64,000 nucleotides of DNA from Bacteroidia bacterium (lineage in GTDB: Bacteria > Bacteroidota > Bacteroidia > 2-12-FULL-35-15): the NCBI GenBank assembly GCA_030654175.1, contig JAURXZ010000048.1:1-64000 (forward strand), in the 5' to 3' direction. Each line of letters begins with the position of its first letter. Positions within the stretch are counted from its first letter, which is position 1. Under the pieces are notes generated by a model. It did no database searches. It saw only the letters and a program-made list of their open reading frames with translations, and was not told where the DNA came from. The position numbers and the translations under genes were made by a program. Positions 19,579 to 62,652 of this stretch are shown in pieces.

Positions 19579-19732
19579 ACCACTAAGGCACAAAGAACAC
19601 TAAGATTCACAAAGGTGAATTTTTAAGCACAACTAATATTATTGTAAACAGTACTGATATAAAGATTGTTTAATTTATATTCGCTACTTTTTCTTAGTGT
19701 TTTTTTTGTGTTCTTAGTGCCTGAGTGGTGAA
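19579..19732. repeat. Inverted pair of CACTAAGGCAC repeats with no gene inside
   Basis: The left copy ACCACTAAGGCACAAAGAAC (from 19579) and an inverted right copy (TTCTTAGTGCCTGAGTGGTG, to about 19730) enclose about 70 bases of AT-rich DNA. The repeats belong to the same family as those around the GxxExxY gene (58917-59539). It lies between the converging ends of manC and the gene at 19769. Confidence 0.8.
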
Positions 19733-33141: not shown

Positions 33142-33208
33142 CACTTTTTACCTCACCCCTTAATCCCCTCTCCAATTGGAGAGGGGGTTGGGGGTGAGGT
33201 AGAAAGTG
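33142..33208. repeat. Long palindrome (CCTCACCCC type)
   Basis: The arms CACTTTTTACCTCACCCC and GGGGTGAGGTAGAAAGTG enclose an inner CCCCTCTCCAATTGGAGAGG hairpin. This is a typical dispersed palindromic element. Confidence 0.75.
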
Positions 33209-57883: not shown

Positions 57884-58900
57884 TTATTTTCTGCTCAGCA
57901 CCATATTCTTCAATGCTTCTATCCATTTGGGATGATCATTTAAACTTTCCACGAGGGTTATTTTTTCACCACCATGTTCCTTGAAGATCTCGTTGTATTC
58001 CGTTCCTATTTCATAAATAGTTTCTAAACAATCTGAAACAAAAGCAGGTGAAAAAACTAACATTTTCTTTTTGCCTTCTTTTGCTTTTTGTTCTACTACC
58101 TTATCGCTGTAAGGCTTTATCCATTTATCATTCAAACGTGATTGAAAAGTACTCTCATATTTCCCTTCCGGAATATTTAATCGTTTTACTAACTGACGTG
58201 TTGTTTCAAAACAATTGGCACGGTAACAATAGTGATTGTCTTTGGTAATGGAATCGCAGCAACTAGCCAGATTACAAGTATTTGCACCATAGTGTGCCGA
58301 ACCTTTCAAGATGTGGCGCTCGGGCAAACCATGATAACTGAAAATAAAATAATCGTAATCGTCAAAATTATATTTTTTTGCAACCTCCACGCAAGCATCA
58401 ATAAAATCGGGATTATCATAAAATTTTGAGATAATTTCAACGGACGGAGTTACCTCCCATTTACCGATAATACGAAGAGCCTCTTCAACAGATGAACCCG
58501 TGCTTGATGATGCATATTGAGGATACAAAGGGATCATAATGATCTTTTGTACCTGGGCTTCACGTAGTTTGTTCAATGCCGATTCCATACTCGGACTTTG
58601 ATAACGCATCCCCAATTCAACTGCAAAGGAATCACCTAAAGCTTTTTGTAATAGCGTTTTTACTTTAACACTATTTGTTAAAAGGGGCGATCCTTCTTTG
58701 GTCCAGATATGCTGGTATAGCTTCGCTGACTTAGGTGCCCGAAATGGCACAATAATACCATTCACCAGTAAAAAACGACCAATAGGATTGATATCGATCA
58801 CACGAGGATCATTCAAAAATTGTGATAAATATTTTCTAACATCCGAAGTTTTTGGGCTGTCGGGTGTTCCAAGATTTATAAGTAGTACGCCTGTTTTCAT
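57884..58900 (-). CDS. hemH: Ferrochelatase
   Basis: 338 residues, last step of protohaem synthesis: insertion of Fe(II) into protoporphyrin IX. Motifs LLINLGTPDSP at the N-terminus, PLYPQYASSSTGSS, FSYHGLPERH with the catalytic His, and FSPAFVSDCLETIYEI. Four cysteines in CNLASCCDS and CYRANCFET are unusual but occur in several bacteria. Single gene. Confidence 0.95.
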   Translation of the reverse strand: MKTGVLLINLGTPDSPKTSDVRKYLSQFLNDPRVIDINPIGRFLLVNGIIVPFRAPKSAKLYQHIWTKEGSPLLTNSVKVKTLLQKALGDSFAVELGMRYQSPSMESALNKLREAQVQKIIMIPLYPQYASSSTGSSVEEALRIIGKWEVTPSVEIISKFYDNPDFIDACVEVAKKYNFDDYDYFIFSYHGLPERHILKGSAHYGANTCNLASCCDSITKDNHYCYRANCFETTRQLVKRLNIPEGKYESTFQSRLNDKWIKPYSDKVVEQKAKEGKKKMLVFSPAFVSDCLETIYEIGTEYNEIFKEHGGEKITLVESLNDHPKWIEALKNMVLSRK

Positions 58901-58916
58901 AATATTTTTTTTATTT

Positions 58917-59539
58917 CACCACTAAGGCACTAAGAACACTGAGATACACTAAGTTTTTTCAACATTTTGAGAGACCGTTTTCATTTCACATTTTTTCATC
59001 ACTAAGGCACGGAGAACACCAAGATACACTAAGTAAAGTTTTTTCAACTGATTTCTTAATCATTAAAAAAGAAAAAGATTCATTCTATTCACCCTCGCGG
59101 CAAGAATGAAAAGCTCTGCGATACTAAAGGAACTAAGCCATCATGAACAATATTTTCACAATGAAAATTTATCAGTAATCCTTTAGGTTTATTTGTTAAT
59201 TTTAAGTACGAAAGTAATTGAGCTTTAAATACAGGCAAAATAATCTCAACTGATTTTAATTCAACAATTACAAGATCATTTACTAATAGGTCCAATTTTA
59301 AAGACCCACCTAATTGTTTTTCTTTATAAATTATTGGTACAACAATCTGTGATGAAACTTGTAAACCTGCTGATTTCAATTCATCAATCAAACAAACTTC
59401 ATAAACAGATTCTAAGAGACCAGGTCCAATGTGCTTATGTACTTCAATAGCGCATCCTACAATTTTATATGCTATATCATTTATATACTTCTGCGTTACC
59501 ATCTCAGTGTATCTTAGTGTTCTTAGTGCCTTAGTGGTG
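58917..59539. mobile_element. Inverted-repeat cassette carrying a GxxExxY gene
   Basis: Two direct 37-bp copies of the CACTAAGGCAC repeat (58917-58953 and 58997-59033) lie on the left and one inverted copy (59503-59539) lies on the right. The right copy begins one base beyond the gene's start codon. The inverted copy differs from the first left copy at only 2 positions. No transposase is encoded. Confidence 0.7.
59089..59502 (-). CDS. GxxExxY family protein (PD-(D/E)XK fold)
   Basis: 137 residues from the ATG at 59502. The family motif appears as GLLESVYE (G-x-x-E-x-x-Y). The nuclease-like core is KLDLLVNDLVIVELKSV, with Asp and E-x-K in the PD-(D/E)XK pattern. The frame extends upstream to 59586, but that extension is translated repeat and overlaps lpdA, so it is rejected. 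Function unknown; members are common near such repeats. Confidence 0.85.
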   Translation of the reverse strand: MVTQKYINDIAYKIVGCAIEVHKHIGPGLLESVYEVCLIDELKSAGLQVSSQIVVPIIYKEKQLGGSLKLDLLVNDLVIVELKSVEIILPVFKAQLLSYLKLTNKPKGLLINFHCENIVHDGLVPLVSQSFSFLPRG

Positions 59540-59546
59540 TATTTTG

Positions 59547-60950
59547 TTAAATATGCAACGCACGTTTCCCTGTTGCATCCAAACACGCTTCTTTAAAAGC
59601 TTCTGTGTATGTAGGGTGTGCATGGCTCATACGTGAAATGTCTTCGGCACTGGCACGGTATTCCATGGCAACAACTGCTTCGGCTATCATATCGGCAGCA
59701 CGAGGGCCAATGATGTGTACGCCTAATATTTCATCGGTTGCTTCATCTGCCAATACTTTTACAAAACCATCTGTATCCATTGATGCACGGGCTCTTCCAC
59801 TGGCCTTGAAAGGAAAATTACCTGCTTTATATTTTTTGCCCTGCTCTTTTAATTGCTCCTCGGTAAAGCCAACAGCAGCTACTTCCGGCCATGTGTAAAC
59901 CACTCCCGGAATTAAATTATAATCAATGTGTGGTTTTTGTCCTGCAATAATTTCTGCTACAAAAGTCCCTTCATCTTCTGCTTTGTGGGCAAGCATTGCA
60001 CCTTTAATCACATCGCCAATTGCATAAATGCCTTGTACATTGGTTTGTAAATGTCCGTCCGTTTCAATTTTACCACGATTATCAATTTTTACTCCGGCTT
60101 TATCTAAACCTAAATTATCAGTATACGGTTTACGGCCAACGGAAACCAGGCAATAATCACCTTTTAATTCAACCTTTTCTCCTTTTGCATTATCAGCTGT
60201 TACCGTTACTTCTTTCCCCTTAGTTGTTACACCGGTAACCTTATGATTAAGATAAAACTCAAAGCCTAATTTTTTTAAACTTTTCAGTAACTCTTTACCT
60301 AATGCAGTATCCATGGTACTGATGATCCCGCCTGTAAATTCGAGTACGGAAATTTTAGAGCCTAACCTTGCGTATACCGAACCCAATTCCAAACCAATTA
60401 CACCACCACCAATGATCACCATATGTTTAGGAATTTCAGTTAATTCAAGCGCTTCTGTGGAAGAGATAATTCTCTTTTTATCTATCTCAATTCCCGGTAA
60501 TGATGCAGGTTTTGAACCTGTTGCAATAATCGTTTTCACTGATTCAATTTGTGTTTTTTTTCCATCTGCACCTGTAACTTCAATTGTGTTTTTATTTACA
60601 AATGAACCATGACCATTAAAAACAGTGATCTTATTCTTCTTCATTAAAAAATTAATTCCATCAGAGGTTTGTTTTACTACATCACCTTTGCGCTTTATCA
60701 TTTGTTTGAAATTAATTTTCAGATCCTTTATTTCAATACCATGCTCGGTAAATGAATGTGTGGCATTGTAATAATGTTCTGATGAATCTAATAATGCTTT
60801 GGATGGAATACAACCCACATTCAAACAAGTGCCGCCAAGGGTATTGTAACGCTCGATAATGGCTGTTTTCATACCCAATTGTGCGCAACGAATTGCCGCC
60901 ACATAACCACCAGGGCCTGAACCTATAATTGTAACATCAAATTTTTCCAT
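59547..60950 (-). CDS. lpdA: Dihydrolipoyl dehydrogenase
   Basis: 467 residues, FAD-dependent E3 of 2-oxo-acid dehydrogenase complexes. FAD site GSGPGGYVAA, redox pair Cys42/Cys47 (GGTCLNVGCIPSK), NAD site GGGVIGLELGSVYARLG, and the active His in HAHPTYTEAFKEA. Single gene; complex subunits E1/E2 are not in the window. Confidence 0.97.
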   Translation of the reverse strand: MEKFDVTIIGSGPGGYVAAIRCAQLGMKTAIIERYNTLGGTCLNVGCIPSKALLDSSEHYYNATHSFTEHGIEIKDLKINFKQMIKRKGDVVKQTSDGINFLMKKNKITVFNGHGSFVNKNTIEVTGADGKKTQIESVKTIIATGSKPASLPGIEIDKKRIISSTEALELTEIPKHMVIIGGGVIGLELGSVYARLGSKISVLEFTGGIISTMDTALGKELLKSLKKLGFEFYLNHKVTGVTTKGKEVTVTADNAKGEKVELKGDYCLVSVGRKPYTDNLGLDKAGVKIDNRGKIETDGHLQTNVQGIYAIGDVIKGAMLAHKAEDEGTFVAEIIAGQKPHIDYNLIPGVVYTWPEVAAVGFTEEQLKEQGKKYKAGNFPFKASGRARASMDTDGFVKVLADEATDEILGVHIIGPRAADMIAEAVVAMEYRASAEDISRMSHAHPTYTEAFKEACLDATGKRALHI

Positions 60951-60966
60951 TGTATTTTTATTGTTA

Positions 60967-61055
60967 AAGTATTATGTATTAAGTATTTTGTATTAAGTAC
61001 TATGTATTAAATATTATGCCCAAGTATTATAGTACATAATACATTGTACTTTATA
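60967..61055. repeat. 14-bp AT-rich tandem repeat with inverted half
   Basis: Units AAGTATTATGTATT, AAGTATTTTGTATT and AAGTACTATGTATT follow one another (60967-61008), then two diverged units, then complementary sequence (TAATACATTGTACTTTATAC), so the block can fold on itself. It fills the gap between lpdA and lnt. Confidence 0.7.
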
Positions 61056-61059
61056 CTTA

Positions 61060-62652
61060 CTACTTTCTTATAATTTTAAATCGTAAAAACCATGAGTATA
61101 AGATCAGGAGCAAAGATAGATACATTGCCGCCCGACCAATATAATCGCCAAAACGGGTATAAAACGTCTGATCGTTATTTAATTTAATTTGTGTTTTTAT
61201 AACTGCCGGAACCCACCAATTGGTTGCTTGTTGTATTTCTCCTTTGTCGGTAATAACACAGGAAATGCCTGTATTTGCTGACCGTACAATATACCTTCGT
61301 GTTTCAATAGCTCTTAATGCTCCATATTTTAAATGCTGTTTATAACCGGGAGTATCGCCCCACCAGCCGTCATTGGTAATGATCGCAATAAACTGAGCTC
61401 CGTTTTTAACATATTCAGATACGTATTCGCCATACACACTTTCATAACAAACCACCGGGGCTGCTTTTATTTTGCCATCTGTGGAAACGAACACACTGCG
61501 CTCATCCTGCGTACCCAAACTTCCTGTTGTTCCACCCAGATCGATGGCCAATTTTCCGAGATACTTAAAAATAAAAGGGAAAGGCATTTTTTCTACACCC
61601 GGCACTAACTTCGATTTATGATAGATCTGGATCAGACTGCTGCTGTCTATTTGCAGGGCGGTGTTGTACGAATCATAATAGCCCTCCTGGCTTCTGAATT
61701 TCCTTGCTGTTGAAGATAAAGCCTCGTCCGGTTGGTAAACCTTGGCTGTTGAAGCACCAATAATAATTTTAAGTTTGGGATACGGTTTTAAGAACTCCTT
61801 TAACGTTTTAATGCTGCTACTTTGTATCAACTCCCCCTCCCAGAATTCCTCTGTTAAAGCTGTTTCCGGAAAAACCAAATAATCGGTAGTGGTATCTGTT
61901 TGTTGTGAAGCAAGTTGCAACATTTTTTGTAATTGCACTTCATAACCGGATATAAATTTCTCGTTATAGGGATCAATATTAGGTTGAACAATTACAACAT
62001 TTGTTTCAGCTTTCAAGTCAACATGAAAAGCCAAAATTATGTACGAAATTAAAATAGGTAGCGCTATTAAAGCTGCCAGTCCAATGATCTGTTTTTTTGA
62101 GAACCGAAAACCAAAATCCGAAACTATTTTAAAAATGAAGCAATTGGTTATAAGCACCCATAAGCTTCCTCCAAAAACACCTGTATATTCGTACCATTGA
62201 ATCCAATTGAGCGTGGGAGCAAAACCATTACCCAAAGTAAGCCAGGTCCAGGTCAAATCCCAATCGAGGTGTAAAAATTCAAAAGTGATCCAAAAGCTGA
62301 TGAATACCAGGCTTCCCCATTTTTCACCTACCCGTGTTTTTACTTTATGAAATAACATAAAAGTAATGGTCATCAATAATGCATTGCATCCTATAGCCAT
62401 TGCTGCACCACCAAAAGAAGCATTCTTCACCCACCAGGTTGTTAAAACATTCCAGGTAAAAAACGTTAAATAGCTACAGGCAAAAAGAGTGAGTGTTTTG
62501 TATTTATCCGGATTTTTAAATATAGCATGTTCTGCCATTAAGAGCGGTACAAATGCGATAAATAATAAAGGAACAAAGCCATGAGGAAACCAACCAAAAG
62601 CCAGTAATAAAGCACTTAATAAGGAGAGTAAAAAAAGCTGATAGGTTTTCAC
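61060..62652 (-). CDS. lnt: Apolipoprotein N-acyltransferase
   Basis: 530 residues, about seven membrane helices then a nitrilase-fold domain. Catalytic triad Glu263 (FPETAL), Lys348 (HKSKLVPGVE) and Cys402 (VCYES). It adds the third acyl chain to lipoproteins at the inner membrane. Usual length. The window has several lipoproteins (11218, 14070, 22735) as plausible substrates. Confidence 0.95.
   Translation of the reverse strand: MKTYQLFLLSLLSALLLAFGWFPHGFVPLLFIAFVPLLMAEHAIFKNPDKYKTLTLFACSYLTFFTWNVLTTWWVKNASFGGAAMAIGCNALLMTITFMLFHKVKTRVGEKWGSLVFISFWITFEFLHLDWDLTWTWLTLGNGFAPTLNWIQWYEYTGVFGGSLWVLITNCFIFKIVSDFGFRFSKKQIIGLAALIALPILISYIILAFHVDLKAETNVVIVQPNIDPYNEKFISGYEVQLQKMLQLASQQTDTTTDYLVFPETALTEEFWEGELIQSSSIKTLKEFLKPYPKLKIIIGASTAKVYQPDEALSSTARKFRSQEGYYDSYNTALQIDSSSLIQIYHKSKLVPGVEKMPFPFIFKYLGKLAIDLGGTTGSLGTQDERSVFVSTDGKIKAAPVVCYESVYGEYVSEYVKNGAQFIAIITNDGWWGDTPGYKQHLKYGALRAIETRRYIVRSANTGISCVITDKGEIQQATNWWVPAVIKTQIKLNNDQTFYTRFGDYIGRAAMYLSLLLILYSWFLRFKIIRK

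Follow-up and report, generated by a model that had tools for sequence, protein, structure and literature searches.

A GxxExxY nuclease gene between inverted arrays of short repeats suggests a minimal mobile element that recurs over many bacterial groups

Introduction

Why should a small nuclease gene lie, closely bracketed by copies of a short repeat, in the gap between lpd and hemH? The gene belongs to the GxxExxY family, a common nuclease family whose role has so far been unknown, and which is carried by 74 of the 148 genomes sampled from the phylum and by all 36 genomes of the genus in question. The window analysed here is a stretch of 64,000 nucleotides from a Bacteroidia bacterium (contig JAURXZ010000048.1), and its relevant features are the following:

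57884 to 58900, minus strand: hemH (ferrochelatase)
58902 to 59554, no strand: whole element, between lpd and hemH
58917 to 58953, plus strand: outer 3' arm, unit spacing 8, 9, 10
58997 to 59033, plus strand: inner 3' arm, unit spacing 8, 9, 10
59089 to 59502, minus strand: GxxExxY gene, 137 aa, PD-(D/E)XK nuclease family, likely start ATG at 59502
59503 to 59539, minus strand (inverted): 5' arm, four CACNNAG units, spacing 8, 9, 10, abutting the start codon
59547 to 60950, minus strand: lpd (dihydrolipoyl dehydrogenase)
19579 to 19730, no strand: gene-less inward-facing pair of the same arm type as the GxxExxY element

A preliminary description of this DNA had proposed that two direct repeat copies on the 3' side and one inverted copy at the start codon bracket the gene, and that the upstream extension of the reading frame is translated repeat. 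Both proposals were confirmed, the copies lying as listed and the frame traversing the 5' arm. In all three arm copies, four CACNNAG units follow one another with their starts offset by 8, 9, and 10 bases, and the outer inverted pair of the element comprises 52 nt with 83% complementarity. The word by which the repeat had been described, CACTAAGGCAC, is present (with at most one mismatch, five occurrences in the window, against a mean of 0.63 and a maximum of 4 over 100 shuffles), but it is only one variant, and other GxxExxY genes bear different versions of the arm. The second 3' arm looks like a local duplication, because the orthologous element in genome G008 (91% identity over the matching stretch) has a single 3' arm. 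Taken together with the surveys reported below, the locus points to a minimal mobile element of an undescribed kind, which has a nuclease as its only gene and recurs over many bacterial groups.

Two further structures were seen in the window. Between lpd and the next gene (60966-61066) lies a gene-less inverted pair with GTATTAAG-type units, which resembles the repeat class of four-helix-bundle genes, and a near-perfect palindrome (CCTCACCCC...GGGGTGAGG) is found at 33142-33208.

The GxxExxY nuclease

The window protein passes the curated cut-offs of the GxxExxY / PDDEXK_3 family, with E 1.1e-39 and 135.4 bits against TIGR04256 (cut-off 35), and E 3.2e-37 and 127.9 bits against PF13366 (cut-off 22). 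The E...D...ExK active-site residues that define membership of the PD-(D/E)XK superfamily are present: E31, D71, E81, and K83 do not vary among 57 sequences, in which Q95 and Y99 are nearly invariant, and the catalytic E, D, E, and K are conserved in 99, 98, 99, and 100 of 100 copies from the genus. We take this pattern to match the RecB/Cas4-like PD-(D/E)XK site. Genus copies have a median pN/pS of 0.17 over 64 pairs, with a maximum of 0.278, and these ratios therefore indicate that the protein is under purifying selection.

A sequence search of the PDB (query A1) returned no match up to E 5. An AlphaFold2 model of the window protein (mean pLDDT 95.6) gave 4ic1 as its best Foldseek match (E 0.013), with no match at 0.001. 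With VIA-align, the nearest solved fold was SSO0001 (4ic1; Z 9.2), presumably a member of the Cas4 family, and Hjc (1gef) was aligned with Z 6.7, a value that according to the tool may reflect just a common arrangement. Hjc is a small archaeal junction resolvase, and the GxxExxY nuclease is similarly small, with RecB/Cas4-like motifs.

Inverted flanks across the family

For the survey of the family, 80 GxxExxY loci were taken from named records; they span many phyla and include two from archaeal MAGs. Three loci near contig ends were dropped, leaving 77. Each gene was given a flank score, the best inverted match between its 250-base flanks, with a threshold of at least 18, and 180 ORFs of 80-250 aa within the same loci served as controls. 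The threshold was reached by 55 of the 77 GxxExxY genes and by eight control ORFs, two of which are 23S_rRNA_IVP four-helix-bundle genes; the control ORF L171:7279-7551 has no Pfam match. In the genus of the window, 88 of 100 intact copies reached it, these places having been hand-picked among the matches listed, with rows containing stops and short fragments omitted; in the phylum and genus surveys alike, the family loci were the best-scoring ones rather than random draws. The 22 multi-phylum loci and 12 genus loci below 18 count against the reading as an element. Judged by these flanks, the arm-bracketed layout is the usual one for the family, as the preliminary description had anticipated, and the possibility it had raised, that the repeats occur as often beside other genes of this size, is contradicted by the control ORFs.

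Could such scores arise by chance from AT-rich intergenic flanks? The flanks are indeed largely intergenic, and some control ORFs score as well. Against this compositional explanation, which we regard as having almost no chance of being correct, left and right flanks paired across genomes of the genus reach 18 in only 6.4% of cases, and reversed-pattern controls gave 0 or 1 match per strand in all listed genomes except G081 and G162. An earlier null, pairing flanks across loci, was inflated by shared repeats and was replaced by the control ORFs and the cross-genome pairings. As to orientation, GxxExxY genes point the same way as both neighbours in 38 of 63 loci, compared with 118 of 231 other genes there, and no bias is claimed (both-same versus both-opposite, Fisher p 0.79).

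Architecture of the arms and their tie to the protein

An arm consists of at least two copies of a unit of about 7 bp, CRCNRAG or a lineage-specific relative, spaced by about 8-11 bp. Many variants occur within the genus, among them CACTAAG, CACATAG, CACAGATT, CGCAGATT, and ACGAATA. The survey by exact word that had been proposed thus needs amending: most sampled genes of the family are flanked by inverted arms, but CACTAAGGCAC alone would miss most cases because the arm sequence varies by lineage.

The two arms of a locus are matched in their geometry. Of the 33 loci that have two or more CRCNRAG units in each flank, 30 show a first linker of the same length in both arms, where random pairing would give 13.1 (0 of 5000 permutations). 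Over 70 arm-to-arm comparisons, in which the array of one flank was projected onto the opposite flank whether or not the motif recurred there, mismatches between the arms amount to 6% at the constant positions of the units, 20% at their variable positions, and 54% in the linkers, the last figure being one that shifted registers could inflate. The units thus look like spaced binding sites.

The arms also vary with the protein. Across phyla, arm similarity correlates with protein identity (54 elements, 1060 pairs; rho 0.387; 0 of 1000 within-phylum permutations), with phylum labels assigned from record titles and with five same-genus loci and loci scoring under 17 left out. The closest cross-phylum pair, L139/L149, is 91% identical, which could be due to transfer or to misbinning. 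Within the genus (90 elements, loci under 17 omitted), the correlation holds for pairs from different genomes with dissimilar outer flanks (3766 pairs; rho 0.445; 0 of 500 permutations) and for paralogues at different sites of one genome (136 pairs; rho 0.481; 0 of 500), a different site being defined by blastn on the retrieved flanks, which extend to no more than about 450 bases on each side. As far as these alignments tell, the arms track the protein lineage, both across phyla and between apparently unrelated sites in a genus. Covarying arms across lineages would offer a natural specificity code for a compact sequence-specific nuclease.

Dispersed arms in the genome of the window

The arms are also found away from the gene. 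The longer arm pattern matches 40 sites in the genome of the window, compared with one match for the reversed control. Arm sites lying within 200 bases of a neighbour form 14 pairs, of which 13 face inward and none outward, and the sole same-direction pair is formed by the two 3' arms of the window element. This genome holds 13 gene-less inward pairs of the window arm type and a single gene cassette of that type.

Loss of the gene from a cassette was considered as the origin of most of these pairs and rejected. For 11 of the 12 pairs examined that could be compared, loop similarity is near that of shuffled loops (mean 9.7 versus 8.8, best 16 versus 14), and the best match between the GxxExxY gene and any loop has E 0.23; the loops being little alike and little like the gene, most of the gene-less pairs are not evident deletion copies. 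One blastn alignment (71%) covers the arms and loop of both the pair at 19.6 kb in the window and a pair on contig C27. The nearest relative shows no clean empty site corresponding to the 19.6-kb site.

These dispersed pairs bear on a purely regulatory explanation, in which the protein would bind the 5' arm as an operator, the 3' arm would act as a terminator, and nothing would move. Such an arrangement would fit a 5' arm that abuts the start codon and units that resemble spaced binding sites. It sits poorly with an excess of gene-less pairs over gene cassettes of the same arm type, and with arms that accompany the protein lineage to other sites, so that we hold it to be improbable.

Gene and repeat class across genomes and families

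Another explanation makes the gene a passenger: the arms would be ordinary palindromic repeats spread by another enzyme such as a RAYT, and GxxExxY genes would just inhabit the loops. Y1 genes are indeed present in 106 of the same 148 phylum genomes, and their number correlates with that of the arrays. When array counts (which include overlapping triples) are compared with gene content, GxxExxY is found in 34 of the 35 genomes with at least three triple-array matches and in 40 of the remaining 113. The GxxExxY-array correlation, 0.676, lies above the highest value, 0.604, of 5000 within-family permutations. Counting against the reading as an element, the correlations of Y1 (0.421; permutation maximum 0.401) and of four-helix-bundle genes (0.522; 0.487) also exceed their own permutations, albeit at lower values, and 22 of the 74 gene-bearing genomes have no CRCNRAG triple array, for which other unit variants may be responsible. 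In a joint rank regression on arrays, t is 7.1 for GxxExxY, 0.7 for Y1, and 1.6 for the four-helix-bundle genes, and two array-rich genomes, G036 and G065 (17 and 14 arrays), have no Y1 match. Genomes G013, G060, and G090 have 143, 100, and 94 triple-array matches (overlaps counted) and 7, 4, and 12 GxxExxY genes among the matches listed.

The passenger explanation can also be confronted with the flanks of other gene families, each motif class having been defined after viewing the loci of its own family, so that the test lies in its absence from the others. Loci shorter than 3150 bases were dropped from these four-family comparisons, and a few contig-end loci have roughly placed gene ends. GxxExxY-class arrays face inward on both flanks in 42 of 77 GxxExxY loci (33 CRCNRAG and 9 xATTAAG, with no overlap) and in 19 of a further 29, and they occur on both flanks in 0 of 26 GIY-YIG, 0 of 27 Y1, and 0 of 30 four-helix-bundle loci. 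Conversely, a loose REP motif is found on both flanks in none of 106 GxxExxY loci, and on one flank in 10. The other three families reach a flank score of at least 18 in 10/26 (GIY-YIG), 14/27 (Y1), and 13/30 (four-helix-bundle) loci, with other repeat classes, compared with 1 of 44 control ORFs when the four sets of loci are combined; motifs of their own class lie on both flanks in 5/26, 7/27, and 4/30 loci, respectively. Since the arms in addition track the protein between paralogues of one genome, the passenger explanation appears unlikely. The idea that the protein recognizes its repeat, put forward in the preliminary description, gains from this class specificity, from the covariation, and from conserved units separated by free linkers, all of which are consistent with recognition.

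Gain, loss, and insertion sites

Occupied and empty sites, whose comparison the preliminary description had called for, were found in relatives at two junctions. In the genus of the window, 24 hemH-lpd junctions were read. Four are tight, with 6-14 bases including the lpd stop codon, and four, counting that of the window, hold a GxxExxY gene. In two others (L042 and L052), a GIY-YIG gene confirmed by Pfam lies within an inverted repeat of another kind, and a third, L053, looks by eye like a broken relative. Seven contain an inverted repeat but no intact gene, the repeat being equalled by 0 or 1 of 200 shuffles, and one of these, L057, includes an apparent GxxExxY fragment by eye; in six longer spacers, no significant inverted repeat was detected.

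In Flavobacterium, where 120 of 121 genomes matched the query, GxxExxY lies at the hemA-hemC junction in 12 of the best-matching 30 loci. Among 20 further junctions, picked mostly for short gaps, 13 have an overlap of the hemA stop and the hemC start, TAATG (12 by pattern and L343 by eye). Arm-like remnants are seen in L331, L347, and L348, and in L314 and L323 the arms are present and the gene is absent. L057, L314, and L323 look like gene-loss forms, and any gene loss at hemA-hemC would not have been a clean excision, because the arms persist in L314 and L323. A search of plasmids for GxxExxY gave eight records; on a Sphingomonas plasmid the gene lies between fabD and fabG, and on a Bacteroides plasmid it follows radA.

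In several of the Flavobacterium hemA-hemC loci L310-L322, a gene-less CATATAAG-type inverted element is tandemly multiplied; this element occupies the junction at which other species hold GxxExxY.

A search for target-site duplications at free offsets in 126 elements revealed none beyond the shuffled level, with exact 5-mers in 37, against 35.9 when shuffled, and exact 6-mers in 21, against 14.0 (shuffled maximum 28). Fixed-offset 2- to 4-mers inside the arms are enriched (e.g. 23 versus 6), which is read as arm symmetry, and the exact junctions of the element could not be defined from the 126 elements compared. The lack of a detected duplication would suit a homing nuclease that cuts empty junctions or solo arms and whose gene is copied in by repair, the arms serving as target and homology only. 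The PD-(D/E)XK membership of the protein and the recurrence of the gene at hemA-hemC point the same way. By contrast with a fixed homing site, the arms vary widely among lineages, and one lineage occurs at apparently unrelated sites; we consider homing of this kind a possible but rather doubtful explanation.

A nuclease that may act on its own arms

Comparison among loci and genomes identifies the gene and its arms as a specific, co-inherited unit present at many sites, accompanied by gene-less pairs and encoding a strongly constrained active site. The explanation that we favour, and judge to be reasonably probable, is a widespread REPtron-like mobile element whose sole gene encodes a nuclease that would act on its own arms. 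The preliminary description had spoken of a possible minimal mobile system without a transposase. Empty sites speak for movement as such, and so does the presence of one gene-arm lineage at sites that appear unrelated, but that the protein is the mover is what we infer. Several results weigh against the favoured explanation: the loops of gene-less pairs in the genome of the window are mostly unlike one another, the arms outlast the gene at hemA-hemC, and the junctions of the element lack precision.

The units of about 7 bp would be the recognition sites of the nuclease. Inverted arms are able to fold into hairpins or cruciforms, and branched or single-stranded DNA is a substrate for nucleases of related fold; the arms of the element may likewise extrude as a hairpin or cruciform, the nuclease would bind the unit array and cut at the arms or at a target, and repair by the cell would then copy the element in without a target-site duplication. 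Gene-less arm pairs would be carried in trans by the nuclease, much as RAYT is believed to carry REPINs. At tight gene junctions, an insertion would be tolerated because no reading frame is broken. A mobile element could then be built from one 0.4-kb nuclease gene plus its putative binding sites, which would give a common nuclease family a job and a candidate substrate, and would explain a class of short inverted repeats.

Relation to known systems

The closest parallel is the REPtron (REPIN with RAYT), with which the GxxExxY element shares a single small gene for DNA processing enclosed by inverted copies of the repeat family that belongs to it, further copies scattered in intergenic DNA, and a patchy spread (PMC6006769). 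The dispersed inward pairs in the genome of the window and the arms that track the protein extend this likeness. The two systems differ in their protein, RAYT (TnpA-REP) being a HUH/Y1 transposase and the GxxExxY protein a PD-(D/E)XK nuclease (TIGR04256), and in their repeats, the REP being a GT[AG]G-footed hairpin and the GxxExxY arms spaced unit arrays; in the loci tested, the two repeat classes do not mix on both flanks.

Bacterial MITEs are short, gene-less, bounded by inverted repeats, and located in intergenic DNA, and a target-site duplication is expected for them. The gene-less GxxExxY pairs are likewise short, intergenic, and bounded by inverted repeats. Unlike MITEs and classical insertion sequences, GxxExxY elements have no detected target-site duplication, and the only candidate parent of the gene-less pairs encodes a PD-(D/E)XK nuclease. 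PD-(D/E)XK homing endonucleases are small selfish nuclease genes of the same superfamily located in an intron or intein, whereas the GxxExxY gene is outside any intron or intein and is bracketed by its own inverted arms. 23S rRNA intervening sequences with an S23 four-helix-bundle ORF are also small selfish elements with one ORF (PMC4990558); they differ in protein family and in site, GxxExxY insertions lying between protein genes. Among the open-licence PMC papers listed, no description of such a GxxExxY-arm element was found; mentions of GxxExxY were incidental, TIGR04256, IPR026350, and PDDEXK_3 added none, and REPIN combined with GIY-YIG returned, by title, restriction-enzyme papers only.

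Whether the GxxExxY element exemplifies a general, undescribed principle is to us an evenly balanced question. Several unrelated small families (GxxExxY, small GIY-YIG, and S23-type four-helix-bundle proteins) would then, like RAYTs, each have a distinct inverted-repeat class and lie between its copies, spreading themselves together with gene-less copies. If so, a large part of the short inverted repeats in Bacteroidota and other genomes would be footprints that these systems have left.

Other small genes within inverted repeats

Four-helix-bundle genes (TIGR02436 / 23S_rRNA_IVP; L267-L296, L164:498-878, and L202:8617-8979) often lie between inverted arrays, with units of 7-8 bp such as GATTTGAG or AGCTATTAG. 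Small GIY-YIG genes are found within inverted repeats of a GAGC...GTCGA class in L207-L236, and the GIY-YIG genes at the hemH-lpd junctions of two congeners (L042 and L052) lie in repeats of this class as well. By eye, the cassette of L052 sits inside a CACAGAG-like inverted pair.
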